Shown: piece after piece, positions 2,204 to 59,892 of the stretch
Position numbering within the stretch: the stretch's first letter is position 1
How the letters are laid out: each line of letters opens with the position of its first letter
Assembly: GCA_947503305.1 (NCBI GenBank)
Contig: CANNDF010000002.1
Coordinates: 558,001 to 622,000 of the forward strand
From: an uncultured Dokdonia sp.
GTDB lineage: Bacteria > Bacteroidota > Bacteroidia > Flavobacteriales > Flavobacteriaceae
Direction: 5' to 3'
DNA length: 64,000 bases
The notes under the pieces: generated by a model
What the model was told of the DNA's origin: nothing
What the model saw: the letters and a program-made list of their open reading frames with translations, nothing else
Databases searched by the model: none
Translations under genes and position numbers: made by a program

Positions 2204-4402
2204 ATGAGTACAGACCAATTAGACTTACACGAGGCTCTTAAAAAATATTTTGGTTTCAGTCAGTTCAAAGGTCTTCAGGAAGAAGTTATAAAAAGTATAG
2301 TTGGGGAGGACCATACATTTGTGATTATGCCTACAGGAGGTGGGAAGTCACTTTGTTATCAATTACCAGCATTACTCAAGGAAGGAACAGCAATTGTTGT
2401 ATCACCTCTTATTGCTCTGATGAAGAACCAAGTAGACGCGCTGCGAGGAATATCACAAGAAGATGGTATTGCACATGTTCTTAACTCATCGCTTACTAAA
2501 GGTGAGATTAAAACAGTAAAGGAAGATATTGTCAGAGGGGTTACAAAACTACTATATGTTGCGCCTGAGTCCTTGACCAAAGAAGAGAATGCCGAATTTT
2601 TAAGATCCGTCCCGATCTCTTTTCTTGCTATAGATGAAGCCCATTGCATATCAGAATGGGGGCATGATTTTAGACCAGAATATCGTAATCTTCGAAAAAT
2701 CTTATTGCGTATAGGTGATAATATTCCAATTATCGCAGTTACTGCTACAGCGACTCCTAAGGTGCAAGAAGATATTTTGAAAAATCTGGGAATTACGAAT
2801 GCAAATACATTCAAAGCTTCTTTTAATAGACCAAATCTGTATTATGAAATACGTCCTAAAACCAAGGATGTAGATGCCGATATTATTCGTTTTGTAAAAC
2901 AGAATGAAGGGAAGAGCGGTATTGTATATTGTCTTTCGCGAAAGCGGGTAGAAGAACTCGCACAAACATTACAGGTAAATGGATTAAAAGCAGTTCCGTA
3001 TCATGCAGGTTTAGATGCAAAAACAAGAGTACGACATCAAGATATGTTTTTGATGGAAGACACAGATGTTGTAGTAGCTACAATAGCTTTTGGTATGGGT
3101 ATAGATAAACCCGATGTGCGATTTGTAATCCATCATGATATTCCTAAGAGTATAGAGAGCTATTATCAAGAGACAGGACGTGCAGGTCGTGATGGGGGTG
3201 AAGGGCATTGTCTAGCATTTTATGCATATAAGGATATTGAAAAGCTCGAAAAGTTTATGAGCGGAAAACCAGTTGCCGAACAGGAAATTGGCCAGGCATT
3301 ACTTCAAGAAGTCGTTGCTTATTGTGAGACGAGTATTTCAAGACGTAAGTTTATATTACATTATTTTGGAGAAGAGTTTGATAATGAAACAGGAGAAGGG
3401 GGGATGCTGGATGATAATATGCGTTTCCCAAAAAAGAAACATGAAGCTCAAGAAGAATTACAAACGCTTCTTAAAACTGTGACTGATACCAATCAGATTT
3501 ATAAAAGTAAAGAGCTTGTATTTACCTTAAGAGGTGATGAAAATGCAATAATTACATCTCACAAAACCCATATGCAACCTTTCTTTGGAGCTGGAAAAGA
3601 GCGAGAAAAAGGTTATTGGCATGCTTTGATACGACAAGCGTTGGTTGCTAGCTATATCAAGAAAGATATAGAAACTTATGGCGTAATTAAGATTACAGAA
3701 AAAGGACTAGATTATATAAAGACACCTTCTTCTTTTATGATGACAGATGATCATGTATTTGATGAAAATACAGATAATCAGATTGTCTCAAATGCTAAGG
3801 GAGGTGGTGCTGTAGATACGCAACTTGTAGGGATGCTTAAAGATTTGCGTAAGAAAGTTTCAAAAAAGCTGGACGTTCCACCATTTGTTGTTTTTCAAGA
3901 CCCTTCTCTTAATGATATGGCTATTAAATACCCGATGACGATCGAAGAACTTTCTTCCGTACATGGTGTAGGAGATGGAAAAGCAAAGAAATACGGAAAA
4001 GAATTTGTAGCACTCATCGATCGGTATGTCAAAGAGAATGATATTTTAAGACCTGATGATCTTATAGTCAAAAGTACGGGAGCAAATAGTGGACTTAAGC
4101 TATATATTATTCAAAATGTAGATCGCAAATTACCTATAGATGATCTTGCTGCAGCAAAAGGTAAAGATATGGTTGACTTCATAAAAGAGATGGAAGCCAT
4201 TGTATATAGCGGTACAAAATTAAATATAGGATACTGGGTAGATGAGCTGCTAGATGAAGATCAACAAGAAGAACTTTATGAGTATTTTATCGAAGCAGAA
4301 ACCGATGGAATAGAAGCTGCTCTTGAAGAATTTGATGGAGATTATGATGATGAAGAGTTACGATTATACCGTATCAAATTCATCAGTGAGGTAGCCAATT
4401 AA
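2204..4402 (+). CDS. recQ: ATP-dependent DNA helicase RecQ
   Basis: RecQ is a 3'-5' DNA helicase used in recombination and stalled-fork repair. Visible parts of the 732 residues are motif I PTGGGKS (about 43-49), DEAH box (144-147) followed by the aromatic-rich loop, helicase C domain ending in QETGRAGRDG, a winged-helix RQC region, an HRDC domain (about 540-620) and a C-terminal helical HTH_40-like region. The CxxC zinc cluster of E. coli RecQ is absent: the segment after HYFGEE is acidic and Cys-free. I believe this is usual in Bacteroidota. A near copy of the dispersed palindrome encodes LSRKR near residue 244. Confidence 0.96.
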   Translation: MSTDQLDLHEALKKYFGFSQFKGLQEEVIKSIVGEDHTFVIMPTGGGKSLCYQLPALLKEGTAIVVSPLIALMKNQVDALRGISQEDGIAHVLNSSLTKGEIKTVKEDIVRGVTKLLYVAPESLTKEENAEFLRSVPISFLAIDEAHCISEWGHDFRPEYRNLRKILLRIGDNIPIIAVTATATPKVQEDILKNLGITNANTFKASFNRPNLYYEIRPKTKDVDADIIRFVKQNEGKSGIVYCLSRKRVEELAQTLQVNGLKAVPYHAGLDAKTRVRHQDMFLMEDTDVVVATIAFGMGIDKPDVRFVIHHDIPKSIESYYQETGRAGRDGGEGHCLAFYAYKDIEKLEKFMSGKPVAEQEIGQALLQEVVAYCETSISRRKFILHYFGEEFDNETGEGGMLDDNMRFPKKKHEAQEELQTLLKTVTDTNQIYKSKELVFTLRGDENAIITSHKTHMQPFFGAGKEREKGYWHALIRQALVASYIKKDIETYGVIKITEKGLDYIKTPSSFMMTDDHVFDENTDNQIVSNAKGGGAVDTQLVGMLKDLRKKVSKKLDVPPFVVFQDPSLNDMAIKYPMTIEELSSVHGVGDGKAKKYGKEFVALIDRYVKENDILRPDDLIVKSTGANSGLKLYIIQNVDRKLPIDDLAAAKGKDMVDFIKEMEAIVYSGTKLNIGYWVDELLDEDQQEELYEYFIEAETDGIEAALEEFDGDYDDEELRLYRIKFISEVAN
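2932..2945. repeat. Dispersed palindrome, near copy inside recQ
   Basis: 13 of 14 bases match GCTTTCGCGAAAGC. It is read in the LSRK frame. Confidence 0.7.
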
Positions 4403-4433
4403 TGTATATCTCTATAGTCTAGATAAAGAATTC

Positions 4434-4447
4434 GCTTTCGCGAAAGC
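4434..4447. repeat. Dispersed palindrome, exact copy between convergent genes
   Basis: Exact GCTTTCGCGAAAGC in the 69-bp spacer between the convergent 3' ends of recQ and the hydrolase/OsmC gene. There is no T-run, so it is not a typical terminator. Confidence 0.85.
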
Positions 4448-4471
4448 ATCCTCATCATTAAATAGATTCCC

Positions 4472-6601: not shown

Positions 6602-9600
6602 TTAATTTATTTTAAATTGTTTAATCTCTTTAAATGGTTTTACGTCCAGACTTTCTAGTTTTGTTTGGAAGGGTTTCCATTCGTCAGTAAAGAAAGTGTT
6701 CGTTTTTTCTAAGGCATCTGCAAGTTGATCTTTTGCCTGTTGTATTAGAAGATTTTCGGTAGTGGTTAATCCATCTGGGCGACTTCCGGCATAACGTCTA
6801 GCAAGTCCTATACGTTGCATTACTGTAATTTCTGGATTTCGGGTGATTCCTTGACGTTTATCTTCTTTTCCAAGATAGAGAGCAATTACCTTATCAATAC
6901 TTTTTACAATAGTGCCTATACTTTTAAGATCTTCTTTATGAGTGTCGTCTTTATCAAGCTTTTTCAAGGCTTTCTTATAATCTTGTGCGATGGTCTTATT
7001 TTCTACCAATTGTTTTACAGCATCGGCTGCGGTTTGTGTAAGACCTTCTAGTGTTTTTCCTGCATCATAGGCTTCATTTATTGCTTTTTGAGAGACATTA
7101 AGTCTAGGATCTGAAGCTACAGTAATAGAAGATTCACTGGTTTGATCCCCATAGGTCATAACAAGTTTATAAGTGCCGGGTTTTACTCCCACACCACTTG
7201 GCTCATTTTTGCGTTTGCGTATGGTACGAGAAGGGCGATCACCTCCAGCTTCGTTTAAAAACCATGTTGTTTTATGAATTCCTGTACTATCGGGTGTTTT
7301 CCATTTTAAATGGCGGATTTTACGTGTGCCATCATATATAGTAAGATGGATGGAATCCCATTTAATTTTGGCTTCATCCTTTTCTTCATCTGCAGCTGCA
7401 TCATCGTCTTTATCTTCAGGATCTTTTGTGTCTTTTTGAGGACTTTCCTTTGTAATAAAGTAAGCAATGTGAGCTCCGTATTTACGATTCTCCCCATTGT
7501 ATAATGCATCGCCTCCAAAACGACTTCCCGTAGGTTGTTGATAGGCAGGATCGTATGCTGTAGGAGGTTGAAAGATAGCTAGCTTCTGTGAAGTAATACT
7601 CTTATCTTTTGCAATAGCGCGTAGTGGTCTGATATCATCAAGTACCCATGCTGCACGTCCAAATGTACCGATCACCAGATCATGTTCTCTGGGTTGAATT
7701 ACCAAATCTTTGACTGATGTAGTTGGAAATCCTTTGGTCCATTTCTCCCAACTGTTCCCTGCGTCTAGTGATATATACAACCCATCATCGGTACCTAAAA
7801 ATAGTAAGTTAGGTTCTTCTATATCTTCTACAATGGACAAGGCATAACTTTGGGCATCATTCCCATCTACAATACGTTCCCATGTCTTTCCATAATTACG
7901 GGTACGGTATACATAAGGAGTGTAGTTAAAACGGCGGTAATCATTTGCGACGAGTAAAGCTTCTCCTTGTTTTTTATTACTGGCTTTGATTTGTACAATC
8001 CAACTTCCAGATGGAAGTCCTTTGATATTAGAAGTAACTTCGGTATAGGTATTTCCTCCATCTGTGGTATAATGTACTCGTCCGTCATCAGTTCCTACCC
8101 AGAACATATTTTGTTCCATAGGGCTAGGTTCAATCACTAGGATGGTGCAATAATTTTCGGCACCAGTAGCATCCATAGTCAGTCCTCCGGATTCTGATTG
8201 TTTTTGTTTTGCAGGATCGTTTGTTGTAAGATCTGGCGAGATCACACTCCATGTCAGGCCTTTGTCTGTAGATTTATGAACAAACTGACTTCCAAAATAG
8301 ATGGTGCTATTGTCAAAAGGGTCAATATTTATAGCAGAATTCCAATTGAAACGCAATAGCATTTCTGGATCTGGATGCGTAGGTTTTACGCCATAATTAT
8401 TACCAGTTACCCAGTCATAACGACTCACAAACCCTTGCTGACTCATACTCCATCCATAGCGACTATCGTCTTTGTCGGGAACCACATCAAATCCATCTCC
8501 AAAAGAGATTTCTTGCCAATAGCTATTACGGATGCCTTGTGCTCTCCATACATAAGCTGGGCCTCTCCAGCTTCCATTATCCTGCATTCCTCCATATACA
8601 TTATAAGGGAATTCATTATCTACATTGATATGGTAGAATTGGGCTACAGGTAAATTTCCTATAAAGCGCCATGTTTTTCCTCCATCTTTTGTGATATTCA
8701 TCCCTCCATCATTACCATCGATCATAAACTGACCATTGTCAGGATGGATCCACCATGCGTGATGATCTGGATGTACACCATTATCTACTCCGTATGCAGG
8801 CATTAACTGTTCAAAATTTTTACCTCCATCTTCAGAGACATTGACATACGTAAATACAGAAAAAACTCTATTTTCATTATCTGGGTCTACATGAATATCT
8901 GAGTAATAAAAAGGACGATTTCCGATATCGTTTTTATCATTTATTTTTTTCCAGGTAAAACCACCATCGTTAGAACGATATAACGCATTCTTTTTGGCTT
9001 CGATAAGTGCGTAGATTACACTTGGTTTATTAGGAGCTATAGAAATTCCGATACGTCCTAACTCTCCTTTGGGAAGTCCGTCTTTATCTGTAAGTTTTTT
9101 CCAGGTTTTCCCACCATCATGCGTCATGTGTAATCCAGAACCTTCACCTCCGGATTTAAAAAACCAAGGATCTCGCTTATGCTCCCACATAGCTACTAGT
9201 AGCTTATTAGGGTTGGTAGGATCCATGACCATATCTGCAACTCCCGTTTTGTTATTGGCAAACAGGATTTTATTCCATGTTTTTCCTCCATCTATGGTTT
9301 TATAGAGACCTCGTTCCGGATGTACTCCCCATGGTGATCCTATAGCGCCTACATATACTACATCTGGATTGGTAGGATCTATAATCACCCTATGGATATG
9401 TCGTGTGTTTTCAAGTCCCATCGACTGCCATGTTTTTCCTCCGTCTAAAGATTTGTAAACACCATACCCTCCATTGAGGGAGTTACGAGGATTTCCTTCT
9501 CCAGTACCTACCCAAATCACACTTGGATTAGACTGTTGGATAGCAACGGCACCTATAGATGCTGTAAGTTCATTGTCAAAAATAGGGTTCCATTTTATCC

Positions 9601-9814
9601 CTCCAGAAGTAGATTTCCATAGTCCACCAGAGGCTGTACCTACATACATAATATCAGGATTACTGGTAACGACATCAATGGCAGTGACACGACCTGACAT
9701 ACCACCAGGGCCTATATTACGAGGTTCCATTTCCTGTAGTAAGGACATGTCTAACTTTTGTGCGCTCATTAATGTACAGACACACAATAAGAGTAGTGAG
9801 AAGAATTGTTTCAT
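6602..9814 (-). CDS. VPS10/sortilin-type BNR-repeat exported protein
   Basis: A 1070-residue protein with signal peptide MKQFF...LMSAQ. The N-terminal two thirds (about 30-720) form beta-propeller repeats with many SxDGGxTW Asp-box motifs (KSTSGGIKW, KSLDGGKTW, RSNDGGFTW), the hallmark of sortilin/VPS10 and BNR glycosidase-like propellers. An acidic linker (about 795-815) and an Ig-like segment follow, then a helical C-terminal region. Such proteins are often labelled glycosyl hydrolase, but I see no catalytic evidence; polymer or peptide binding at the surface is as likely. No type IX sorting domain was recognised. Confidence 0.88.
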   Translation of the reverse strand: MKQFFSLLLLCVCTLMSAQKLDMSLLQEMEPRNIGPGGMSGRVTAIDVVTSNPDIMYVGTASGGLWKSTSGGIKWNPIFDNELTASIGAVAIQQSNPSVIWVGTGEGNPRNSLNGGYGVYKSLDGGKTWQSMGLENTRHIHRVIIDPTNPDVVYVGAIGSPWGVHPERGLYKTIDGGKTWNKILFANNKTGVADMVMDPTNPNKLLVAMWEHKRDPWFFKSGGEGSGLHMTHDGGKTWKKLTDKDGLPKGELGRIGISIAPNKPSVIYALIEAKKNALYRSNDGGFTWKKINDKNDIGNRPFYYSDIHVDPDNENRVFSVFTYVNVSEDGGKNFEQLMPAYGVDNGVHPDHHAWWIHPDNGQFMIDGNDGGMNITKDGGKTWRFIGNLPVAQFYHINVDNEFPYNVYGGMQDNGSWRGPAYVWRAQGIRNSYWQEISFGDGFDVVPDKDDSRYGWSMSQQGFVSRYDWVTGNNYGVKPTHPDPEMLLRFNWNSAINIDPFDNSTIYFGSQFVHKSTDKGLTWSVISPDLTTNDPAKQKQSESGGLTMDATGAENYCTILVIEPSPMEQNMFWVGTDDGRVHYTTDGGNTYTEVTSNIKGLPSGSWIVQIKASNKKQGEALLVANDYRRFNYTPYVYRTRNYGKTWERIVDGNDAQSYALSIVEDIEEPNLLFLGTDDGLYISLDAGNSWEKWTKGFPTTSVKDLVIQPREHDLVIGTFGRAAWVLDDIRPLRAIAKDKSITSQKLAIFQPPTAYDPAYQQPTGSRFGGDALYNGENRKYGAHIAYFITKESPQKDTKDPEDKDDDAAADEEKDEAKIKWDSIHLTIYDGTRKIRHLKWKTPDSTGIHKTTWFLNEAGGDRPSRTIRKRKNEPSGVGVKPGTYKLVMTYGDQTSESSITVASDPRLNVSQKAINEAYDAGKTLEGLTQTAADAVKQLVENKTIAQDYKKALKKLDKDDTHKEDLKSIGTIVKSIDKVIALYLGKEDKRQGITRNPEITVMQRIGLARRYAGSRPDGLTTTENLLIQQAKDQLADALEKTNTFFTDEWKPFQTKLESLDVKPFKEIKQFKIN

Positions 9815-9910: not shown

Positions 9911-9926
9911 CGCTTTCGCGAAAGCG
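9911..9926. repeat. Dispersed palindrome, exact 16-bp copy in a divergent promoter region
   Basis: CGCTTTCGCGAAAGCG lies between the divergent VPS10/BNR gene and the vWA gene, 35 bases before the vWA ATG. Confidence 0.88.
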
Positions 9927-9960
9927 TATTTAACACAAATGTCTTATTTTTAATGTGCTT

Positions 9961-11106
9961 ATGAAAAAAGAACATTTTGATGGGTTAACTCCCCCCAAAA
10001 AACAGAAAGGCTTTGTCTTTAAAACCTATGAAGCTCCAAGTCAATCTCCTTTTGAAAAATTGCTTGATATTTTTCAGGAATTAATTACACATACTTCTGG
10101 AGATTTTGATGAGGCGATGGACTGGCTTAAGGAGTTGGATAAAGAATATGAACTAACGGATGACGAGTATACCTTAGATGACTTTGTTCAGGACTTAAAA
10201 GATAAAGGATATATTCGTGAAGAGATCCGCCCTGATGGTTCCCAAGGGGCTACCATAACAGAAAAGACAGAACGGGCAATACGCCAGCGAGCACTAGATC
10301 AGATTTTTGGAAAACTTAAAAAGAGCGCACAAGGCAATCATAAATCAAAAATGAATGGCCGTGGTGATGAGCATACTGGGGATTATCGTGGATACCGTTT
10401 TGGCGATCCTTTAGAGCGTATCTCCATGACAGAAAGTTTACGTAATGCACAGGTAAATAACGGTGTAGGTGATTTTACATTGCAAGAGAGTGATCTGGTA
10501 GTCGAAGAAACCCATTTTAAAGCGCAGATGAGTACTGTACTTATGATTGATATTTCTCATAGTATGATCTTATACGGGGAAGATCGTATTACACCTGCTA
10601 AGAAAGTAGCGATGGCTCTTGCACAGCTTATTACGACACGGTATCCTAAAGATACCTTAGATATTATTGTATTTGGAAATGATGCATGGCCTATAAAAAT
10701 TAAAGATTTACCTTATTTGCAGGTAGGACCTTATCATACCAATACGGTAGCAGGCTTAGAACTAGCAATGGATATCCTTCGCAGAAAGCGTAATACCAAC
10801 AAACAAATCTTTATGATTACAGATGGAAAACCTAGTTGTTTACGTCTTAAAGATGGGCGGTATTATAAAAACCCCAATGGTCTTGATCAACATATCGTAG
10901 GGAAGTGCTATACGATGGCACGTCAAGCACGAAAATTGCATATTCCTATCACTACCTTTATGATTGCAAGTGACCCGTATTTACAGCGATTTGTAGATGG
11001 GTTTACAGAAGCCAACCAAGGGAAAGCATTCTATACAGGCCTCCAAGGACTAGGCGAGATGATTTTTCAAGATTATGAGACCAATAGAAAAAAACGAATA
11101 AAGTAA
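9961..11106 (+). CDS. von Willebrand factor A domain protein (CoxE/BatA-like partner of a MoxR ATPase)
   Basis: About 381 residues. A charged helical N-terminal region (about 1-170) precedes a vWA domain whose MIDAS motif is DISHSM (DxSxS), with later conserved Thr and Asp in MITDGKPS. These domains bind a metal ion and partner proteins. The next gene on the strand is a MoxR-type AAA ATPase, the usual partner, so the two probably form a chelatase-like or chaperone-like assembly. ATG at 9961 is preferred; a GTG two codons upstream is possible. Its last codons recur in the following spacer. Confidence 0.88.
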   Translation: MKKEHFDGLTPPKKQKGFVFKTYEAPSQSPFEKLLDIFQELITHTSGDFDEAMDWLKELDKEYELTDDEYTLDDFVQDLKDKGYIREEIRPDGSQGATITEKTERAIRQRALDQIFGKLKKSAQGNHKSKMNGRGDEHTGDYRGYRFGDPLERISMTESLRNAQVNNGVGDFTLQESDLVVEETHFKAQMSTVLMIDISHSMILYGEDRITPAKKVAMALAQLITTRYPKDTLDIIVFGNDAWPIKIKDLPYLQVGPYHTNTVAGLELAMDILRRKRNTNKQIFMITDGKPSCLRLKDGRYYKNPNGLDQHIVGKCYTMARQARKLHIPITTFMIASDPYLQRFVDGFTEANQGKAFYTGLQGLGEMIFQDYETNRKKRIK

Positions 11107-17192: not shown

Positions 17193-17430
17193 ATCACTCC
17201 TTGTTTATACAATTACAAACTATTGTAATTATTTGTAGTCAGTTGTTATTGAGAAATGGAGTAGGAGGTTGTTTTCGCGAAAGTGAGCCATTAGTACAAG
17301 AGATAAAATAGAATATGATTATAGGTGTCTTTATAAATGGTCATCGGGTTTTAATTTTTATACAAATACCTCTAGCACATTTTGTATTTCATTAAAATAC
17401 CCTTCCTTTATAGCTTAAAAACTAAATGCT
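17193..17430. other. Spacer between the accessory block and the thioesterase operon
   Basis: No gene seen. It holds a degenerate copy of the dispersed palindrome (17271-17284) and a perfect inverted repeat ACAATTACAA...-type stretch around 17207-17232 that is AT-rich. Promoters for both flanking transcripts should be here, but I could not pick a convincing TTG-TAnnTTTG pair. Confidence 0.35.
17271..17284. repeat. Dispersed palindrome, degenerate copy
   Basis: 12 of 14 bases match, with the TTTCGCGAAA core intact. It lies in the divergent spacer at the right edge of the accessory block. Confidence 0.55.
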
Positions 17431-20775: not shown

Positions 20776-21551
20776 CATTGTGGACAGGTTGTAACCTTAG
20801 GGTTTTCAAGCTCTATCTTTGATAGAAGTGTGAGTTGCCCTCCTTCAAATTGACTATCCAAATCTGTTAACGGGGGGTATTGTGTTTTGGGTTTGTAGTT
20901 TTTATAATCTACAAAACGAACTCCGTTGATAATACGTTCATTATAAGCTTCTCTAAAACGAGTTCCCCCTTCATCTACTTGATAGTTATATGCGAGATAA
21001 TCTACGTCATAGGTATCTACATCAATCCAATATAGATACTCATCTTCAAAATCGGTACCACCACCATCTTGTGCAAAAGTGACTTTGACTCTATAATAAG
21101 ATTTGCCCTTTACTTCTGCCATGTCTACAAATGTTTTATTGACAGCGGCATCATTAAGTCCATAGGGAAGTACAGAAAAATAATGTACAGAATTGATGCT
21201 ATTTGCATATTTTGTTTTCATTGTATCAGGAACAGGGGTGAGTGCGCTTTCGCGAAAGCGTACAAAAGATCCATCATTTGCCAATACATCTTTTTGTAAT
21301 TCACAAGCAGCATCGGTACATCTTTCAAAGGTGCGTACACCGTTTTCTCTTTTTGCACGATAATGATAATCCCTAAATTTAAAGGCGATACTGGCATTGG
21401 AAATAACAGCACCTCCACTACGTGCAATCGCTCTATCTACAATAGTTTGAGCATCTGGTGTTGCTTCTTTACAGGCCGTAAAAAGGGATAGGGTGAAAAG
21501 GCTTATGAGCCCAAAAATTTTATATATCGATGTGTGGTTGCGGGTGTGCAT
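20772..21551 (-). CDS. DUF6503-type lipoprotein
   Basis: 259 residues with an N-terminal basic and hydrophobic segment and lipobox LFTACKE (Cys about 27). The mature part is a beta-rich LolA/LppX-like fold in outline (EDEYLYWIDVDTYDVDYLAYNY). This matches the Bacteroidota DUF6503 group; the function is unknown. The exact 16-bp dispersed palindrome lies inside, read as RFRESA. The gene is convergent with the histidine phosphatase and overlaps its stop. Confidence 0.75.
   Translation of the reverse strand: MHTRNHTSIYKIFGLISLFTLSLFTACKEATPDAQTIVDRAIARSGGAVISNASIAFKFRDYHYRAKRENGVRTFERCTDAACELQKDVLANDGSFVRFRESALTPVPDTMKTKYANSINSVHYFSVLPYGLNDAAVNKTFVDMAEVKGKSYYRVKVTFAQDGGGTDFEDEYLYWIDVDTYDVDYLAYNYQVDEGGTRFREAYNERIINGVRFVDYKNYKPKTQYPPLTDLDSQFEGGQLTLLSKIELENPKVTTCPQC
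21245..21260. repeat. Dispersed palindrome, exact 16-bp copy in DUF6503 gene
   Basis: CGCTTTCGCGAAAGCG read on the minus strand in the RFRES frame. Confidence 0.88.
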
Positions 21552-22193: not shown

Positions 22194-24686
22194 ATGAATA
22201 AAACCATACTCTCACTTTTCTTTTTTTTCTCATTATATACACTTTCTGCACAAATTACAGGAACAGTAGTAGATGATCAGGGAACATCTCTTCCCTTTGT
22301 AAATATATATCTAGAAGGCTCTTCAGAAGGCACGACTTCTAATGGCTCTGGTGTTTATGAGCTGGATATACTATCGTCAGATACAGCAGGAGAAACGTAT
22401 ACGATTGTTTTTCAGTTTTTAGGCTATACGACCGTTCGGAAAGAAGTCACGGTTACGACAACTCAGTATACCCTGGATGTTACTATGACACCAGAAACAA
22501 CCTCACTGGAAGAGGTGGTTATAGAAGCGGGTGTAAATCCTGCCGATCGTATTATACGTGCTACGATTGCAAATCGTAAGATAAACCTAGACAGGCTAGG
22601 GGAGTATACTGCAAATTTTTATTCTCGTGGCGTCTGGCAAGTAAAGAATGCACCCGAAAAAATATTTGGACAAGAAGTAGGAGATCTGGGAGGAGGACTG
22701 GATTCTACCCGAACGGGGATTATCTATCTAAGTGAAACTATTTCTGAAATTGCTTACCAACGGCCTGATAACTTTTCAGAAAAAATAATTGCTAGTAAAG
22801 TAAGTGGTGACGATAACGGATTTAGTTTTAATACTGCAATTGATGCTAATTTTTCATTTTATGAAAATACCATAAATATCAATTCTCAAATGATCTCTCC
22901 TATAGGGACCAATGCTCTTGCGTACTATACCTATACACTCATAGGAACTTTTTATGAGCAAGGGAAGCTTATTAATAAAATTGAAGTAACGCCTCGACGT
23001 CCTAAAGATCGTGTGTTTAGTGGCCTCATTTATATTGTAGAAGATGACTGGCAATTATATGGAGTAGAGCTAGCGACCAATGGAGAAGCCATTCAGGTTC
23101 CTGTCGTTGAGGATTTGATGTTTACACAAAATTTTAAATATGACGAAGATTATAATCAATGGGTAAAAATATCTCAGGTGATTGATTTTAGCTTTGGATT
23201 TTTAGGTTTTAAAGGCGACGGACGTTTTACGGCTGGATATAGTGATTATGATTTTACCCCTGATTTTTCTAAAGATTCTTTTTCTAATGAAGTATTGTCA
23301 TTTGCAGAAGAAGCCAATAAAAAAGATAGCCTCTACTGGGAGGGTAAGCGCCCTGTACCACTTACTATAGAGGAGGCCGATGACTATGTCCGTAAAGACA
23401 GTATTCAAGTGATCAGGAAGTCACAAAAATATATGGACTCTATAGATGGAAGGAGCAATAAACTTAAACTACTATCTCCATTAACGGGGTATACTTATAC
23501 AAATTCATATAAGCGATGGCGTATTGGGTATGATGGGGTTGTAAAAGATATTAACTACAATACAGTACAAGGGTGGAATGGTACTACGGGGATTAATTAT
23601 TTTACATGGAGTGATGATGATTATCAGAAGACATTTTACGCTTTCGCCAAAGCGAACTATGGTTTTTCAGATGATAGGTTACGATATACAGCAGGGTTTA
23701 CCCGCAGATTTAATAGAAGGAATAGAGCGACATTAAGTGTGCGTGGAGGAGTAGAAACGCAACAATTTAATAATACAAACCCTATAAGTAACCTTATAAA
23801 TACAGTAGCTTCCTTGTTTTTTGAACGAAATTATTTAAAGATTTATGAGCGTTCTTTTATAGAAGCAAATTATAGTCAGGAGGTTATTAATGGTGTGCGT
23901 GTTTATGCAAATGCCACCTATGAAGATAGAAAGGGGTTGTTAAATACGACAGACCAAACATTTTATCCCGATGATGAGATTGTGTTTTTAAGTAATAACC
24001 CATTAGATCCGTTGGATGAAACCACTACAGGAATAGAAGATCATTCTATTGTAAAAGCGCAAGTCACAACACGTATTAATTTTGGTCAAAAATATTATAA
24101 TTATCCTTCCGGTAAGTTTACTATTTCTAGTGATAAGTATCCTACACTATACCTTACGTACGAAGGAGGATTTGGAGCTTCTAATAGTGATTTTAATTTC
24201 AGCCAACTCAGAGCACGGATACGGCAAGGGTTTAATATAGGAAATAAAGGACGTTTTAATTACCATCTTAAAGCTGGGACTTTTCTTGATTCGGGAGATG
24301 ATATAAGCTTTATAGATTACCAACATTTTAATGGAAACCAAACGCGGGTAGGTACAGAAAGCAGTTATCTGGATCGGTTTAATTTATTACCCTACTATGA
24401 GCGAAGTACAAATAACAGCTATTTTGAAGCGCATATAGAGCATGATTTTAAGGGATGGATCTTAGGGAAAATTCCAGGTATAAATGAGCTTAACTTTAAT
24501 CTTGTTGCAGGAGCTCATGTATTGAGTACGCAAGATAACAGACCGTATACAGAACTTTCTATCGGACTGGATAATATAGGGTGGGGTAAATATAGATTCC
24601 TTAGACTAGATTATGTGCGATCCTCAGGTTTGGGATCTAATGATGGTGCCTTTGTCTTTGGGTTAAAGTTTTTAGATTTCTTCTAA
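22194..24686 (+). CDS. DUF5686 outer-membrane protein with carboxypeptidase-regulatory-like N-terminal domain
   Basis: 830 residues. Signal peptide (to about LSAQ), then a CarboxypepD_reg-like beta sandwich (about 20-105: GTVVDDQGTSLPFVNIYLEGS), then a long DUF5686 region with beta-barrel style strands to the end (GLKFLDFF, terminal Phe). This is a common surface protein type in Bacteroidota; the function is unknown. A near copy of the dispersed palindrome encodes YAFAKAN near residue 484. The gene is followed 5 bp later by a convergent stop. Confidence 0.88.
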   Translation: MNKTILSLFFFFSLYTLSAQITGTVVDDQGTSLPFVNIYLEGSSEGTTSNGSGVYELDILSSDTAGETYTIVFQFLGYTTVRKEVTVTTTQYTLDVTMTPETTSLEEVVIEAGVNPADRIIRATIANRKINLDRLGEYTANFYSRGVWQVKNAPEKIFGQEVGDLGGGLDSTRTGIIYLSETISEIAYQRPDNFSEKIIASKVSGDDNGFSFNTAIDANFSFYENTININSQMISPIGTNALAYYTYTLIGTFYEQGKLINKIEVTPRRPKDRVFSGLIYIVEDDWQLYGVELATNGEAIQVPVVEDLMFTQNFKYDEDYNQWVKISQVIDFSFGFLGFKGDGRFTAGYSDYDFTPDFSKDSFSNEVLSFAEEANKKDSLYWEGKRPVPLTIEEADDYVRKDSIQVIRKSQKYMDSIDGRSNKLKLLSPLTGYTYTNSYKRWRIGYDGVVKDINYNTVQGWNGTTGINYFTWSDDDYQKTFYAFAKANYGFSDDRLRYTAGFTRRFNRRNRATLSVRGGVETQQFNNTNPISNLINTVASLFFERNYLKIYERSFIEANYSQEVINGVRVYANATYEDRKGLLNTTDQTFYPDDEIVFLSNNPLDPLDETTTGIEDHSIVKAQVTTRINFGQKYYNYPSGKFTISSDKYPTLYLTYEGGFGASNSDFNFSQLRARIRQGFNIGNKGRFNYHLKAGTFLDSGDDISFIDYQHFNGNQTRVGTESSYLDRFNLLPYYERSTNNSYFEAHIEHDFKGWILGKIPGINELNFNLVAGAHVLSTQDNRPYTELSIGLDNIGWGKYRFLRLDYVRSSGLGSNDGAFVFGLKFLDFF
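23639..23654. repeat. Dispersed palindrome, one-mismatch copy in DUF5686 gene
   Basis: CGCTTTCGCCAAAGCG. The single change G to C is synonymous (GCG to GCC) and keeps the AFAKA peptide seen at other copies. Confidence 0.7.
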
Positions 24687-26293: not shown

Positions 26294-27112
26294 TTATTGT
26301 CTGTTTTTATCATTCTTTTTTTTCAAGGCTTTTCGGGCTTCTTTTTTCTGTGCTCGTTTGTAATTTTGATAGGCTTTTACTTTTGCCAAATGTGCTTTCC
26401 TTTCTTCTGGAGTCTCTTTTGTTGTTGAGGTATAATAATCATCAACCATAGAGAACCCTCCGACAATAATTTCTCCCTGGAGGTTTGGATCTTCTGGAAG
26501 AACGACATTAATAGTACGTTGGGATGTTATTTTTATTTCTTGGGTTTCAAGACCGACATATGAGAATATCAAAACATCATTAAGAGCTGCTTCGATTTCA
26601 AAATTTCCATCAAAGTCTGCATGAGTCCCTTTTTCTGTTCCTTTGATAGTAATCGTTACCCCAGGTAATGGCCCTGTCGTATCTGAAACATTTCCGTTTA
26701 TAATGACGAGATCCGATTGAGGATGCATTTTTTGCTTTCGCGAAAGCGAACTAATTCCCAAACTTCTATAGGATGTATCTGTTTGTTCTGTAGTAGGTTG
26801 TGTATTTTGTGTTTTGACCTCTTGTGTTGATAGAATTGCTGCAGGAATAAGAAGAGATGCTGCGTAGTTGACCCATGACTTTCTTTCTTTTCGTTGAATA
26901 CGAATTGTGCGATTGAGTTGTGATTTTGTAAAACGACCACATAGGTTTGCTCCAGAGGTTACGGTTTTGTATATATCTTCGTCTGTTTTTGATGTAAAAT
27001 CAATGACATCTTTTTGACAGCTGGCACAATGCTTCCCTTTTTGAGTGGGGGTCATTTTTGCCCAGTCCTCATGACAGGGTTCTTCAATAGTAATTTGGAT
27101 AGATTTTTTCAT
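26294..27112 (-). CDS. Membrane protein with cysteine-rich N-terminus and carboxypeptidase-regulatory-like domain
   Basis: 272 residues. The N-terminal segment carries CHEDW and KHCASCQKDVIDFT (a CxxC zinc or redox-like element typical of this Bacteroidota group), then a single membrane segment (about 80-95), then a CarboxypepD_reg-like beta domain (about 135-210: VSDTTGPLPGVTITIKG) and a Lys/Arg/Glu-rich tail. The gene's exact palindrome copy encodes SLSRKQK between the membrane segment and the beta domain. A surface or TonB-related role is inferred from the domain only. Confidence 0.75.
   Translation of the reverse strand: MKKSIQITIEEPCHEDWAKMTPTQKGKHCASCQKDVIDFTSKTDEDIYKTVTSGANLCGRFTKSQLNRTIRIQRKERKSWVNYAASLLIPAAILSTQEVKTQNTQPTTEQTDTSYRSLGISSLSRKQKMHPQSDLVIINGNVSDTTGPLPGVTITIKGTEKGTHADFDGNFEIEAALNDVLIFSYVGLETQEIKITSQRTINVVLPEDPNLQGEIIVGGFSMVDDYYTSTTKETPEERKAHLAKVKAYQNYKRAQKKEARKALKKKNDKNRQ
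26734..26748. repeat. Dispersed palindrome, exact 14-mer copy in a coding region
   Basis: GCTTTCGCGAAAGCG, read on the minus strand in the LSRK frame. Confidence 0.85.
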
Positions 27113-31767: not shown

Positions 31768-32415
31768 TTATATTTTGTTAATATAGTAGTCACTGTATTT
31801 ACTTTGATCAAAGGTAAAAGCATTTTTTGCTATGGGTTGATTAGGTTTAAAAGTATTTACAGTAATGGTAATCTTTGTGTCATTTTTTTGCACAATGATT
31901 AATCTATAGATATGTTTAGTCTCAGTATCTATTCCTAACAAGGTATGTTTTATCTCACTATTTGTATCTATAGGGGTGAGTTTTACATATTGTATCGTAC
32001 GTCCTTTCACTTTTTGAGAGATATCCATTTTTTGAGTATATCCATCATTAAAAAACGAAAGCATTTTGGAAGGAGTAATGGCATTTTCATCTTGATCGCT
32101 TACCGAGCTTATAGTTACTTCTTCATCTTCTGGTACAATCGTATAAATATTTTTACCATCAAAAAGTTGTGTAGTTCCCATCAGGTTGAGGGCATAGAGA
32201 TCACCTTCTAGTACGACAGTTCCTTTAGTTTCTTGGTTGACACCTTCTGCTTCATTACTCAAAGCATATCTAAAGTCTATAGAGATATTCTTATAGCTTT
32301 TTACTTTTGTATCTACTTCTTTAAGAAGGGATTGTGCAGATTGTGCTTTCGCGAAAGCGTATCCACCCAATACCACTAATACCGTCATTATAAATCGCAT
32401 ACGTGCTTTATTCAT
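31768..32415 (-). CDS. lolA: LolA-like outer-membrane lipoprotein carrier
   Basis: About 215 residues with signal peptide ending near AKAQS, and the LolA/LppX half-barrel pattern (SIDFRYAL, GTVVLEGDLYAL, LFDGKNIYTIVPEDEEV). LolA carries lipoproteins across the periplasm to the outer membrane. Starts at 32424, 32415 or 32400 are all possible; the first two overlap the ftsK stop (32408), which suggests coupling. An exact palindrome copy encodes AFAKA at the end of the leader. Confidence 0.88.
   Translation of the reverse strand: MNKARMRFIMTVLVVLGGYAFAKAQSAQSLLKEVDTKVKSYKNISIDFRYALSNEAEGVNQETKGTVVLEGDLYALNLMGTTQLFDGKNIYTIVPEDEEVTISSVSDQDENAITPSKMLSFFNDGYTQKMDISQKVKGRTIQYVKLTPIDTNSEIKHTLLGIDTETKHIYRLIIVQKNDTKITITVNTFKPNQPIAKNAFTFDQSKYSDYYINKI
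32345..32359. repeat. Dispersed palindrome, exact copy within lolA signal peptide
   Basis: GCTTTCGCGAAAGCG read on the minus strand in the AFAKA frame, across the signal-peptide cleavage region. Confidence 0.88.
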
Positions 32416-36367: not shown

Positions 36368-36865
36368 TTATAGCGCATTAAGAGCAGCATTATAATTGGG
36401 TTCCTGGCCTATTTCAGGTACTTGTTCTGTATATAGTATTTTACCTCTTTCATCGACGATTACAATTGCTCTAGAATGTAATCCTTCAAAACCACCATCT
36501 ACAAGAATTAAACCATAATCTTTTCCAAACTCTCCAGATTTAAAATCGGACAATGTATGTACATTTTCTATGCCTTCTGCACCGCAAAATCGTGCTTGAG
36601 CAAATGGAAGATCACGAGAAATACACAGTACTTCTGTATTTTCTAATGAGGCTGCTTTTTCATTAAAAGTACGTATGGATTGTGCACATACACCCGTATC
36701 TACACTAGGAAAAATGTTTAAGATAAGTTTCTTCCCTCTATAATCATTCAGGGATACTGAGGATAAGTCATTTCGCGAAAGCGTAAATGCAGGAGCAGGA
36801 CTTCCCACTTCAGGAAGATTGCCTATCGTATTGACGGGAGTTCCGCCTAGAGTTACTGATGCCAT
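36368..36865 (-). CDS. tpx: Thiol peroxidase Tpx
   Basis: 165 residues, peroxiredoxin fold. Peroxidatic Cys60 in PSVDTGVCAQS and resolving Cys94 in RFCGAEG match the E. coli Tpx pair, and it reduces peroxides with thioredoxin. A near copy of the dispersed palindrome encodes TLSRND at residues 28-33. It is the first gene of the tpx-dgkA pair. Confidence 0.95.
   Translation of the reverse strand: MASVTLGGTPVNTIGNLPEVGSPAPAFTLSRNDLSSVSLNDYRGKKLILNIFPSVDTGVCAQSIRTFNEKAASLENTEVLCISRDLPFAQARFCGAEGIENVHTLSDFKSGEFGKDYGLILVDGGFEGLHSRAIVIVDERGKILYTEQVPEIGQEPNYNAALNAL
36769..36782. repeat. Dispersed palindrome, near copy in tpx
   Basis: 12 of 14 bases match with the TTTCGCGAAA core intact; read on the minus strand in the LSR frame. 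Confidence 0.6.
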
Positions 36866-36956: not shown

Positions 36957-36997
36957 CATGTATATTTTAGTTGTAGTTATGCTTTGGCGAAAGTAAT

Positions 36998-39977: not shown

Positions 39978-39992
39978 GCTTTCGCGAAAGCG
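39978..39992. repeat. Dispersed palindrome, exact copy in the PLP-enzyme/Lrp divergent spacer
   Basis: GCTTTCGCGAAAGCG, 36 bases before the Lrp start. An ATG at 39976 overlaps it but is not the natural start. Confidence 0.88.
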
Positions 39993-40026
39993 TACTTATT
40001 TTTTAAGAATTAGAAATATTTTCAGT

Positions 40027-42345: not shown

Positions 42346-42359
42346 GCTTTCGCGAAAGC
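42346..42359. repeat. Dispersed palindrome, exact copy upstream of the serine hydrolase
   Basis: Exact 14-mer in the divergent spacer, 72 bases from the hydrolase start. Confidence 0.85.
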
Positions 42360-47449: not shown

Positions 47450-48505
47450 ATGATCAATTTATATTCGGCTCAAATAGAGTCTCTTTCTATTCATAGAGTT
47501 GGTAATAAAAGTAAAGCAGAAGGCCTTTTTGTTTCTAATGATCCTTATCCATTAAGTGACGAGGTTACTCCATTGATTAAAGAGTTTTTTTTCAAACCTT
47601 TTAGAGAAAAAGAAGAAAATTATTATCGCTTTGATCACGAGACAGATTTAGAATTCCATACCTTATTTGGTATTGTCCAAAAGGTTTTTGAAAACCCTAG
47701 TGCTACGCATTTGCTTTCTGAAGAGATTGCAAAGCATTTATATGATCAAAGTGAGCACCCACATATAAAGGCAGGAGAAGTGTATATCGCACATTTGGAA
47801 AATGTGATGATTGATAATACAAAAACAGATGCTATAGGGATTTTTAAGAGCGAGTTAAAGCAGGATTTCTTACAATTTCGCGAAAGCGGAACAAATCTAG
47901 AGATGCTTTTGGAACAAGGAATTAACCTTAATAAACTTGATAAAGGGTGTCTTATATTTAATCACAAGCCCGAGGAAGGGTATAAGGTATTATCAATAGA
48001 TTCTAATAGGTATGATACAAAGTATTGGCTAGAGAATTTCTTAGGAGTTACTACTTTTGAAGATGAGAATTTTTACACAAAAAAATACTTAAAGTTCTGC
48101 CAGGATTTTGCCAAGGATGTTGTTCTGCCTGCAGAAGATAAAAAAGAAGAAGTACTATTTATGAATCGTGCTGTTAATCATTTTGCAAAGAATGATGCTT
48201 TCGAAGAAAGTGCATTTGTTAATGAAGTAATAGATAATCCTGATTTAATACCCGAGTTCAGACATTATAAGACAGAACAGTCTCCAAAATATAAAATAGA
48301 AGATCTTACAGAGTTTCCTATTAGTAATAAAGCGGTTTCTGCACAACGTAAAAAGATTAAAAATGTCATTAATCTAGATACAAATATTCAGATTAAGATG
48401 GATTTTATCAACCCTGAAAGCGCAGAAAAATTTGTTGAGAAAGGCTGGGATGAAGAAAAACAGATGTATTATTATCTGGTCTATTTTAATAAAGAGCAAA
48501 ATTAA
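47450..48505 (+). CDS. Nucleoid-associated protein (YejK/NdpA family)
   Basis: 351 residues. N-terminal SIESLSIHRVGNKSKAEGLFVS matches the 37-kDa nucleoid-associated (NdpA) family; the rest is mixed alpha/beta with EVYIAHLENVMIDNTKTDAIGIFKSELKQDFL. The proteins bind DNA or are found in phage-defence neighbourhoods, but the function is not settled. A near copy of the palindrome encodes QFRESG at about residue 142. Transcription ends at the hairpin at 48509-48528. Confidence 0.85.
   Translation: MINLYSAQIESLSIHRVGNKSKAEGLFVSNDPYPLSDEVTPLIKEFFFKPFREKEENYYRFDHETDLEFHTLFGIVQKVFENPSATHLLSEEIAKHLYDQSEHPHIKAGEVYIAHLENVMIDNTKTDAIGIFKSELKQDFLQFRESGTNLEMLLEQGINLNKLDKGCLIFNHKPEEGYKVLSIDSNRYDTKYWLENFLGVTTFEDENFYTKKYLKFCQDFAKDVVLPAEDKKEEVLFMNRAVNHFAKNDAFEESAFVNEVIDNPDLIPEFRHYKTEQSPKYKIEDLTEFPISNKAVSAQRKKIKNVINLDTNIQIKMDFINPESAEKFVEKGWDEEKQMYYYLVYFNKEQN
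47874..47887. repeat. Dispersed palindrome, near copy in NdpA-like gene
   Basis: 12 of 14 bases match with the core intact; read in the FRES frame. Confidence 0.6.
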
Positions 48506-50352: not shown

Positions 50353-50366
50353 GCTTTCGCGAAAGC
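50353..50366. repeat. Dispersed palindrome, exact copy between ABC permease and T9SS gene
   Basis: Exact 14-mer, 21 bases after the permease stop. A further hairpin AGCCTTA-CATTTA-TAAGGCT lies at 50401-50420, just before the next ATG. Confidence 0.85.
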
Positions 50367-53454: not shown

Positions 53455-54813
53455 ATGACATTTAGGGATCTAAATCTTACAAATTTTTTATGGAACGCTC
53501 TAGACGATTTAGGCTTTACTGAGCCTACATCTATACAAGAGCTTGCATTTTCTCCAATAATGTCTGGTAAAGATACCGTAGGGATTGCACAAACGGGTAC
53601 AGGAAAGACTTATGCTTATATGCTTCCTATTTTACGAAGTTTATCCTATTCACGTCAGGAGAATCCTAGAGTTTTGATTTTAGTTCCTACAAGAGAACTT
53701 GTTGTTCAAGTAGTAGATGAGATTGAAAAACTATGTGGGTATCTTGATATGCGTATTGCTGGAGTCTATGGAGGAGCAAATATTAATACACAAAAAAAAC
53801 TAATAGCTCAAGGGCAAGATATTATAGTTGCTACACCAGGAAGATTATATGATCTGGCAGTAAGCCGTGTATTACAGTTAAAATCTATTCAGAAGCTAGT
53901 GATTGATGAAGTAGATGTGATGTTAGATTTAGGGTTTAGACCCCAGCTTATGAATATATTTGATATTCTTCCTCCGCGTAGACAGAATATCATGTTTTCT
54001 GCAACGATGACAGATGATGTTAATGAGCTCATCGTAGATTTCTTTCAAAACCCATCTCGTATTTCTGTTGCTCGCAGTGGTACTCCACTTAATACAATTA
54101 CGCAAGTAGGGTATAAGATTCCTAATTTTTATACGAAGGTTAATTTTTTACTAGACGAACTTGCCTCTGCTAAAAAATATCCTAAGGTTCTATTATTTAC
54201 ACGGGATAAACGGATGGCAGATCGGTTGTTTAAAAAATTAGACGAAGCTTTTCCTAGTCAATGTGAAGTAATCCATTCTAATAAAACACAAAATTATAGA
54301 TTAAATAGTATCAAAGACTTCTCAGAAGGTGTTGTTCGGATTATGGTAGCTACCGATGTTATGGCAAGAGGTTTGGATATAGATGATATTTCTCATGTTA
54401 TTAACGTAGATACCCCTAATTATCCAGAAAACTATTTACATCGTATAGGACGTACTGGGCGGGCACAACGTCAAGGAACTGCATGGGTACTTACAACCCC
54501 AAAAGAAGAAAAAGCATTAGAAGCGATAGAGGATCTTATGAAATATAAGATCCCACAAGTTGTTTTACCAGATACAATAGAAATCTCTCAAGAACTTGCA
54601 CCAGAAGAACGGCCAGAAGCAAAGGAAATCTATAATCCTAATAGAAGGAATATAGAAGATGAAAATGCACCAGGACCCGCTTTTCATGAAAAGAAAGAAA
54701 AAAATAAAAAAGTGAATTTGGGTGGTTCATATAAGCGTACTATAAAACAGAAGTACAAAAAACCTAAAACACGAGGGGATAAAACCTACAATAAAAAGTA
54801 CAAGAAGAAATGA
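53455..54813 (+). CDS. DEAD/DEAH-box RNA helicase with DEVD motif
   Basis: 452 residues. Motif [10 protein letters not shown] (about 46-54), motif II DEVD instead of DEAD (about 154-157), SAT, and HRIGRTGRA at the end of the helicase core; the Lys-rich C-terminal tail is basic as in RhlE-type helicases. It unwinds RNA in ribosome assembly or decay. The last bases overlap the start of the metallo-beta-lactamase gene (ATGA). Confidence 0.92.
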   Translation: MTFRDLNLTNFLWNALDDLGFTEPTSIQELAFSPIMSGKDTVGIAQTGTGKTYAYMLPILRSLSYSRQENPRVLILVPTRELVVQVVDEIEKLCGYLDMRIAGVYGGANINTQKKLIAQGQDIIVATPGRLYDLAVSRVLQLKSIQKLVIDEVDVMLDLGFRPQLMNIFDILPPRRQNIMFSATMTDDVNELIVDFFQNPSRISVARSGTPLNTITQVGYKIPNFYTKVNFLLDELASAKKYPKVLLFTRDKRMADRLFKKLDEAFPSQCEVIHSNKTQNYRLNSIKDFSEGVVRIMVATDVMARGLDIDDISHVINVDTPNYPENYLHRIGRTGRAQRQGTAWVLTTPKEEKALEAIEDLMKYKIPQVVLPDTIEISQELAPEERPEAKEIYNPNRRNIEDENAPGPAFHEKKEKNKKVNLGGSYKRTIKQKYKKPKTRGDKTYNKKYKKK

Positions 54814-55586
54814 TTTCAATGTATACGTTAAGATATATCATCGTAGGTGTCGTTTTTTGCACACTTTCCTCCTGTATAGATTCTCATAAGTATGACCCCA
54901 AACCTTATTTACGACCTCTTGAGATTGTAAAATTATCAACCAATAATTACTTGCATATATCGTATAAGAAACTTGAAAATGGGAACTATTTTCCTTGCAA
55001 TGGTTTTATTTATATGAAAGGAAAAGAAGCTATTGTTTTTGATACACCTTTTAACGATTCTATTTCTTCTCAACTTATAACCTTTATTCAAGAAGATCTC
55101 GATGCTACTATAAAAGGAGTAGTTTTAAATCATGCTCATGAAGATGCTGCGGGTGGGGTTAACGCTTTCGCGAAAGCGAATATCCCTTCATATGCCTCTT
55201 CTTTGACAGCAGAGATCCTTGCAAAAGATTCTATCTATATCACACACCCATTTGAGGAAAAACAAGAATTATTTATTGGAGGCACTACTATTGAAAACCG
55301 TTATTTTGGCCCGGCACATACGAACGATAATATAGTTTCCTATATAAAAGATGAAGATGTGTTATTTGGGGGATGTATGATAAAACCATTGGATGCTAAT
55401 CACGGAAATATAAAGGATGCAGATATAGCAGCATGGCCTTCTACAGTAACTGCTATAAAAGAGGCATATCCAGATGTAAAACTTGTTATTCCTGGTCATG
55501 GAGGGAGAGGGGATAGTTCATTACTAGATTATACAATAGACATGTATACACCATCTGTGGAGCAAGTCATATATAGTTTAGAATAA
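54810..55586 (+). CDS. Subclass B1 metallo-beta-lactamase, lipoprotein
   Basis: 258 residues with lipobox LSSC (Cys22). All zinc ligands of subclass B1 are there: His108-x-His110-x-Asp112 in NHAHEDA, His170 in GPAHTND, Cys189 in FGGCMIK, His230 in IPGHGG; Lys192 and Asn200 match the substrate-binding residues of the family. It should hydrolyse beta-lactams with two zinc ions at the periplasmic face. Start overlaps the helicase stop by four bases. An exact palindrome copy encodes NAFAKAN just after the zinc motif without changing the length of that loop relative to known B1 enzymes. Confidence 0.9.
   Translation: MISMYTLRYIIVGVVFCTLSSCIDSHKYDPKPYLRPLEIVKLSTNNYLHISYKKLENGNYFPCNGFIYMKGKEAIVFDTPFNDSISSQLITFIQEDLDATIKGVVLNHAHEDAAGGVNAFAKANIPSYASSLTAEILAKDSIYITHPFEEKQELFIGGTTIENRYFGPAHTNDNIVSYIKDEDVLFGGCMIKPLDANHGNIKDADIAAWPSTVTAIKEAYPDVKLVIPGHGGRGDSSLLDYTIDMYTPSVEQVIYSLE
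55163..55178. repeat. Dispersed palindrome, exact 16-bp copy in metallo-beta-lactamase gene
   Basis: CGCTTTCGCGAAAGCG in the AFAKA frame. Confidence 0.88.
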
Positions 55587-59029: not shown

Positions 59030-59057
59030 GCTGGCAAAGATAAATGAAAACTCCTGA

Positions 59058-59088: not shown

Positions 59089-59092
59089 TATT

Positions 59093-59851
59093 GTGAATTA
59101 TACCATTACCCCTGAATATAAGGATCAAGAAGATCTGATATGCGATATAATTACCCATTTTGAACAGCAAGGTGAAAATTTTGATGAACGGAATCGTAAT
59201 GCCCTCAAACTTTTTGATCTTAAAGGGATTACCATAAATGTAAAATCATTTAAGGTCCCAAATTTTATAAATCGTATCGTATATAGGTATGTAAGAACAT
59301 CAAAAGCACGACGCTCTTTTGAATATGCGCATCGACTACTAGAAAAGGGGATCTATACACCCAACCCTATTGGGTATTTTGAAGAAAAAAACCTTCTTTT
59401 TGGAAAAAGCTATTATATCAGTGAGCATTTAAATTACGATTTAACCTATAGAGAGCTCATTCATGACTCTCCTTATGTAGGAGATGCAGCTATTTTAAGT
59501 GCATTTGCAAAGTTTACCTATCAACTTCATCAAAAGAATATTCATTTTTTAGATCATTCTGTAGGTAATACATTGATTGTAATCAAAGAAGATGGATATG
59601 ATTTCTATCTAGTAGATCTTAATCGAATGGAGTTCGGACCTATGGATTTTAAAACACGTATGGCAAATTTTGCTAGACTATCATCAGTTGAGTCACATGT
59701 TAAGATTATGGCAGATGCATATGCTTCAGAGAGTGGAGAAGATGCTGATTTAGTATTTACGACCATGTGGAAAGGAATTCAAAATTTTCAAAAGAATTTC
59801 CATAGACGTCAACAAATCAAAAGTCGTATTAAGTTCTGGAAGAAAGCCTAG
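59093..59851 (+). CDS. Lipopolysaccharide kinase (KdkA/WaaP-like), GTG start
   Basis: 252 residues of the eukaryotic-kinase-like LPS kinase family. Lys in NVKSFKVPNF region, catalytic loop DHSVGNTLIV and metal-binding LVDLNRMEFG are visible. The group phosphorylates Kdo or core heptose on lipid A cores. GTG at 59093 gives the shortest leader; no ATG lies nearby. It is divergent from a glycosyltransferase, and kdsD elsewhere in the window feeds the same Kdo pathway. Confidence 0.85.
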   Translation: MNYTITPEYKDQEDLICDIITHFEQQGENFDERNRNALKLFDLKGITINVKSFKVPNFINRIVYRYVRTSKARRSFEYAHRLLEKGIYTPNPIGYFEEKNLLFGKSYYISEHLNYDLTYRELIHDSPYVGDAAILSAFAKFTYQLHQKNIHFLDHSVGNTLIVIKEDGYDFYLVDLNRMEFGPMDFKTRMANFARLSSVESHVKIMADAYASESGEDADLVFTTMWKGIQNFQKNFHRRQQIKSRIKFWKKA

Positions 59852-59878
59852 TATAAAGATGTTGTTTCTTTTTAGTAC

Positions 59879-59892
59879 GCTTTCGCGAAAGC
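59879..59892. repeat. Dispersed palindrome, exact copy between LPS kinase and DEAD-box genes
   Basis: Exact 14-mer, 27 bases after the kinase stop. The -7-like TACCTTTG for the next gene is at 59925-59932. Confidence 0.85.

Follow-up and report, generated by a model that had tools for sequence, protein, structure and literature searches.

A long palindrome iterated across Dokdonia genomes and conserved in phages: candidate recognition site of a whole-replicon DNA-binding protein

A palindromic word, GCTTTCGCGAAAGC, is repeated hundreds of times in every examined genome of Dokdonia (Flavobacteriaceae) and is also kept in phages. It was noticed in a 64-kb stretch of the 4.26-Mb genome of an uncultured Dokdonia sp. 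(genome G000; the stretch, G000:C2:558001-622000, is referred to here as the window). The half-sites are symmetric, the footprint is long, and the copies are regularly spaced, lie away from promoters and are conserved in chromosomes as well as in phages; together, these features point to a protein that binds double-stranded DNA and acts on the whole replicon. We therefore read the palindrome as the recognition site of a putative symmetric (dimeric) protein of this kind with a role in chromosome organization or protection, and give this reading a probability of about 0.48. The protein, its dimeric state and its role in organization or protection are the parts that we infer.

Distribution of the palindrome

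A count over the whole genome, proposed in the preliminary description of the window, gave 570 exact copies in G000 and none of the reversed-pattern control. Likewise, all 18 Dokdonia genomes contained between 369 and 905 copies each (reversed control, 0), corresponding to a density of approximately 1 per 3.6 to 7.6 kb. Among 397 genomes of the family (237 genera), more than 400 copies were found in six, namely two of Dokdonia (g1), three of genus g11 and one of genus g191. The remaining 391 held 0 to 19 copies, and one of these had a single match to the reversed control. Two genomes of genus g77 (G303 and G093, with 19 and 16 copies) stand between carriers and noncarriers. A separate draw of 149 family genomes agrees with a restriction to few genera, and in a draw from the phylum 22 of 395 genomes had a match, none of them above six copies except G000. 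Dialects of the palindrome were also sought in 100-kb samples of six other genera, and no comparable iterated palindrome was found there.

In a protein tree (row L150, which yielded no protein, was left out), g191 stands beside Dokdonia with 97/98 support, and g11 forms a long branch whose position at the fork lacks resolution. Two changes of the label are needed on this tree, but its well-supported branches are compatible with a single origin.

Consensus, flanks and near matches

The full signal approximates TACGCTTTCGCGAAAGCGTA, with flanks in which C is scarce on the 5′ side and G on the 3′ side as far as about 19 bp. In 520 kb of the Dokdonia genome G001, 128 exact copies were found versus 9 one-mismatch words, and their flanks carried C(−1) in 90%, A(−2) in 63% and T(−3) in 81%, with the depletion of C 5′ (G 3′) reaching about −19. 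The flank T[A/T]C...G[T/A]A, claimed from the window, was recovered in 34 exact G000 copies (C(−1), 66%; T(−3), 82%; A/T(−2), 79%). The pattern is much alike in coding (n = 149) and intergenic (n = 59) Dokdonia copies. Genome G027 of genus g11 (L199-L206) shares the core with G001 (L173-L198) and has a different, dialect-like flank, with T(−10) in 79% and C(−2) in 40% of 29 copies.

Over 700 kb of G001, only 11 one-mismatch words accompanied 176 exact copies, and three-mismatch words exceeded the shuffles by only about 15. Two-mismatch words outnumbered one-mismatch words in G001 (31 to 11), G017 (10 to 3) and G207 (10 to 2), a pattern that arises because one arm frequently loses its outer GC in a single piece; the relation was reversed in G000 (5 to 7) and g11 (1 to 4). 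Both inner arms are kept; the motif is symmetric and not oriented as a Chi-type signal would be. Mirrored flank positions were uncoupled (z of −2.0 to 1.2 over 199 Dokdonia copies and of −2.5 to 2.1 in G001 alone). As the mirrored bases vary independently, symmetric double-stranded recognition by independent half-sites fits better than a hairpin.

Copies in the window

The window contains 10 exact copies, 2 with one mismatch and 4 with two mismatches, at the 16 coordinates given in the preliminary description, all of which proved correct. The core TTTCGCGAAA is present in 14 of the 16, as had been claimed. Dinucleotide-shuffled windows gave a mean of 0.07 matches with at most two mismatches and a maximum of 1 (100 shuffles), bearing out the claim of rarity by chance. 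The copies are as follows (ORF, open reading frame):

2932..2945, near copy TCTTTCGCGAAAGC with one mismatch, within a RecQ-type helicase ORF, 2204-4402 (+)
4434..4447, exact copy, convergent intergenic, about 30 bp past the helicase stop
9912..9925, exact copy, divergent intergenic, between 6602-9814 (−) and 9955-11106 (+)
17271..17284, near copy GTTTTCGCGAAAGT with two mismatches, one per arm, divergent intergenic according to the ORF list
21246..21259, exact copy, within a DUF6503 ORF, 20772-21551 (−)
23640..23653, near copy GCTTTCGCCAAAGC, within a DUF5686 ORF
26734..26747, exact copy, within ORF 26294-27112 (−)
32345..32358, exact copy, within a LolA-like ORF, 31768-32424 (−), close to its N-terminal end
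36769..36782, one-arm copy CATTTCGCGAAAGC, within a redoxin ORF (−)
36981..36994, near copy GCTTTGGCGAAAGT with two mismatches, 3 bp past the stop of ORF 36998-38497 (−)
39978..39991, exact copy, 5′ leader of an Lrp/AsnC-type regulator, ORF 39976-40485
42346..42359, exact copy, divergent intergenic
47874..47887, one-arm copy AATTTCGCGAAAGC, within ORF 47450-48505 (+)
50353..50366, exact copy, codirectional intergenic, about 20 bp past a stop codon
55164..55177, exact copy, within a metallo-beta-lactamase-superfamily ORF, 54810-55586 (+)
59879..59892, exact copy, codirectional intergenic, about 27 bp past a stop codon

The true start of the Lrp/AsnC-type ORF is likely at about position 40027. 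The mixture of convergent, divergent, codirectional and coding locations agrees with what had been described.

Gain, conservation and turnover

The window DUF5686 protein has as its nearest named relatives six Dokdonia loci (67 to 77% identity). Across the six Dokdonia rows of the alignment, the site is exact in three and carries one mismatch in three, the window row being among the latter. Eight rows from outside the genus align without gaps through the 14 columns and lack the site. In this gene, the one examined, copies thus appear to arise by substitution, not by insertion, and the inserted repeat unit by which repetitive extragenic palindromes (REP) or bacterial interspersed mosaic elements (BIME) spread was not seen.

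Orthologous sites are mostly kept. The LolA-like gene site (32345) is exact in 15 of 17 genus rows, with one mismatch in one row and unrecognizable in another (row L124, a repeat of L223, was not counted, and L236 was not aligned), in DNA that is approximately 66 to 80% identical to the window in the aligned pieces. A second site, in the adjoining gene, turns over: it is exact in 8 of the 15 rows reaching it, near in 2 and absent in 5. Between G001 and its near relative G017 (94.6% identity; high-scoring segment pairs [HSPs] of at least 1,500 bp and >88% identity), 22 of 24 copies were intact, compared with 55% of all 14-mers (binomial P, 0.0001). Neither a copy number near the Markov expectation nor loss at orthologous positions, the two outcomes named beforehand as speaking against the element, was found.

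Placement and spacing

Exact copies were 7 to 8 times denser in intergenic than in coding DNA in G001, G027 and G000 and 3 times denser in G017, and coding DNA held more than half of the copies in all four genomes sampled. Coding copies occur in all three reading frames, AFAKA being the commonest. Intergenic density was lowest in divergent gaps (0.52 per kb versus 1.32 and 1.80), so the copies are not concentrated in promoter regions as those of a transcription factor regulon would be. Directly after the palindrome stem the sequence is A-rich rather than T-rich (the mirror of the 5′ flank pattern), and the compensating stem changes followed by a T-run that mark an intrinsic terminator were not seen. 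The view that the palindrome is no promoter or terminator alone is upheld.

Spacings below 1 kb were scarce relative to the expectation under the same coding/intergenic weights: 5% versus 26% in G001, 8% versus 26% in G017, 3% versus 17% in G000 and 0% versus 17% in G027. In three of the four genomes the spacings as a whole were less spread out than expected; for G001 this was not clear-cut (p 0.07). A separate set of spacing lists covers the first 100 places in two genomes. Copies avoid one another below 1 to 2 kb and favor tolerant positions.

Sites of the parS/Noc type are palindromes of about 14 to 16 bp, and a link to them had been suggested, with the reservation that the density is too high for parS. 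The reservation stands; the link finds no support beyond the common palindromic form. Unlike parS/Noc sites, the copies number in the hundreds, probably differ in half-site spacing and follow no visible origin-to-terminus trend. Twenty-six 20-kb stretches of G001, mapped with the origin itself not located, showed no such trend, no clustering at the origin and no exclusion from the terminus; three of them held only one or two copies, and two of those three were AT-rich.

Conjugative regions, islands and phages

Two sampled gaps in G000 (119 kb), which encode TraG, relaxase and coupling proteins, contained no exact copy, one one-mismatch copy and three two-mismatch copies. In seven other genera, sporadic copies occur in pairs, 933 bp or approximately 2.4 to 2.5 kb apart, at loci with related long ORFs, and one 6.9-kb stretch matches efflux-transporter and multicopper-oxidase genes. 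These sequences suggest islands received from carriers. In the efflux-type islands of noncarrier Flavobacteriaceae (L159-L171), the palindrome lies at equal places and was exact in 42 of 71 pairwise comparisons at 70 to 80% identity, the pairs not being independent; its retention at equal places likewise suggests transfer from carriers. The ratio of one-mismatch to exact copies, 0.32 in the islands and 0.06 in G001, agrees with such an origin, although it is also 0.21 in G000 and 0.26 in phages. Plasmid searches returned partial or distant matches only.

Host-like copies are present in viral records with portal, major head, tape-measure, transposase and integrase genes. Twenty viral records, selected for the motif, carried 1 to 7 copies each; they represent 24 of 120 viral loci, taken by flank score. 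As loci picked in this way are no sample, head-protein relatives and pairwise phage comparison provide a less selected check. Between phages at 65 to 75% nucleotide identity, several copies are intact, and one is common to G413, G428 and G429; the alignable copies of G428 are exact at 3 of 4 places in G429 and 1 of 3 in G413, its other copies not aligning. Exact copies are also present in all four of the additional head-protein relatives that a protein search recovered (L372-L375; 62 to 63% identical), and a remote relative (L376; 22%) contains none. Single-protein searches for phage relatives otherwise gave only near-copies, and alignments gave few more, or only known records.

In two otherwise largely unrelated phages (L343:3677 and L351:13755), a segment of 90 to 95% identity starts 4 bp before the palindrome. 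A role as a recombination joint was considered; among the G001-G017 alignment ends listed, none lies within 50 bp of a copy, and the phage module starting at the palindrome therefore stays an isolated observation. Separately, L313:5003-15481 (G001) contains several units of approximately 300 to 400 bp that are 84 to 93% identical to two units in G017.

Search for a protein that tracks the palindrome

Protein families were compared between 14 carriers and 14 noncarriers, the latter having no more than 19 copies each. The ComEC family was found in all 14 carriers and all 14 noncarriers. The C5-methyltransferase family PF00145 occurred in 6 of 14 carriers and 7 of 14 noncarriers, and PF01555 exceeded the cutoff in 2 and 4, respectively, so neither tracks the palindrome. 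The pilus/secretion ATPase family PF00437 was above the cutoff in 4 of 14 carriers and 3 of 14 noncarriers, with weak subthreshold matches in the remaining genomes; the type IV pilus-type ATPase expected of carriers of uptake signals was therefore not consistently seen. At the Lrp/AsnC-type gene (39978), the core recurs at an equal place in two other species (G001 and G017), whose protein is 58% identical. This regulator (39976-40485) is a possible reader of the palindrome, which we regard as a lead and not as evidence of binding.

Interpretation and alternatives

Under the interpretation given at the outset, a putative dimeric double-stranded DNA-binding protein common to three genera (Dokdonia, a sister and a more distant one) would act on the entire replicon and not on single genes. 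Recurring every 4 to 8 kb, the sites would act at regular intervals as anchors or barriers by which the chromosome is organized or protected, and resident phages might keep them because phage DNA would pass through the same machinery. A more specific version, in which the long palindromes, set at even intervals, are read by the dimeric protein either as anchors or as a label of self-DNA, and several phage lineages adopted that label, can be put forward only tentatively, with the odds against it. If true, this replicon-wide code would form a class of genome signal distinct from highly iterated palindrome 1 (HIP1), uptake sequences and Chi.

Several results weigh against a whole-replicon binding protein. 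No binding protein was identified, and no tracking gene emerged among the four families compared in 14 versus 14 genomes. Tolerant positions and the lack of exact copies in the two conjugative islands fit uptake sequences equally, and the tests made here do not separate organization from protection. Conservation in phages, metagenomic ones among them, could reflect long coresidence rather than direct benefit. Furthermore, decay is less rare in G000 itself (7 one-mismatch per 34 exact copies), and sites turn over between distant species: at 71% identity between G000 and G001 (HSPs of at least 500 bp), 2 of 4 aligned G000 sites were exact and one carried one mismatch.

The main rival, somewhat unlikely on present data, is a DNA uptake signal: a transformation receptor would prefer DNA with the palindrome, and biased recombination would spread and keep the copies, as for the uptake signal sequences (USS) of Pasteurellaceae and the DNA uptake sequences (DUS) of Neisseriaceae. 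Gap-free gain by substitution, the excess of exact over one-mismatch copies, tolerant positions, high conservation, spacing repulsion and the finding that two gaps carrying conjugation genes contain no exact copy all agree with it. Indeed, it explains the chromosomal pattern equally well, and the available parts of the USS/DUS literature describe a parallel pattern of many copies, exact ones exceeding one-mismatch ones, permissive core positions and absence from recent insertions (PMC2397512, PMC1626085). Substitution gain, conservation and absence from recent acquisitions are shared with USS and DUS. A ComEC-type protein is encoded in 28 of 28 genomes, and Riemerella columbina, assigned to the same family in the part of PMC7965970 concerned, is transformable. 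However, genomes lacking the trait encode ComEC just as often, and PF00437 is above the cutoff in only 4 of 14 carriers. The palindrome is symmetric, whereas USS and DUS are not palindromic; phages keep copies over deep divergence; and the density of about 1 per 3.6 to 7.6 kb is approximately 4- to 8-fold lower than the value close to one per kb that the same partial sources give as context for USS/DUS (PMC1626085, PMC2397512).

HIP1, the word GCGATCGC of cyanobacteria, is in the available parts of PMC4390886 a perfect, lineage-bound palindrome iterated genome-wide, its function open. The likeness to HIP1 drawn in the preliminary description stands in this respect, as the Dokdonia signal is likewise a single palindrome in excess throughout the genome, inside genes and between them, and includes TCGCGA. 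The link with an orphan DNA methyltransferase that has been argued for HIP1 is improbable here: PF00145 is absent from 8 of 14 carriers, PF01555 exceeds the cutoff in only 2 of 14, and a methyltransferase site of 4 to 6 bp would not account for a core of 20 bp with flanks that reach 19 bp. This alternative is only weakened, since two methyltransferase families were compared. Unlike the 8-bp HIP1, the Dokdonia signal spans 14 to 20 bp plus long flanks, is conserved in phages and does not track PF00145 or PF01555.

Comparably improbable is a Chi-like signal in palindromic form that would stop enzymes of the RecBCD/AddAB family. Chi, which occurs about once per 5 kb in E. coli, is a short signal with an orientation, recognized in single-stranded form. 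The chromosomal density is similar to that of Chi, copies are conserved in host and phages, and the 5′ flanks are G/T-rich; however, both inner arms are kept here and the halves of the symmetric palindrome are independent, whereas Chi is read single-stranded in one orientation.

An RNA or DNA hairpin element (terminator or REP-like repeat) is very unlikely. By inspection alone the palindrome could fold as a stem, but mirrored flank bases are uncoupled, the sequence right after the stem is A-rich rather than T-rich, over half of the copies are coding in four sampled genomes, and gain was by substitution in the gene examined (DUF5686). A compositional or codon artifact without function is already refuted by the counts: the AFAKA frame is favored in coding copies, but 570 copies face 0 of the reversed word, all three frames are used, the same flanks occur outside genes, and no more than 19 copies are present in 391 of the 397 family genomes.

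Significance

A search of the open-access literature turned up no report of the motif in a genome, subscription journals being mostly outside that scope; papers with a shorter core were unrelated by content in their available parts. The palindrome AACCGTTnnAACGGTT of Caldithrix abyssi is similar in being dispersed, preferring intergenic DNA, avoiding upstream regions and occurring between convergent genes; according to the accessible parts of PMC5317091, it has only 38 exact copies and a strand-specific center, and its coding copies are doubted by the authors. The Dokdonia palindrome differs in its 369 to 905 copies, over half of them coding.

To our knowledge, few oligonucleotides are kept at hundreds of places over a bacterial chromosome, and the solved cases, Chi and USS/DUS, revealed basic processes. 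Given a sharp, bait-ready consensus, cultured strains of the marine Dokdonia, high copy numbers in only 3 of 237 sampled family genera and conservation in phages, it can be tested directly what reads such signals.

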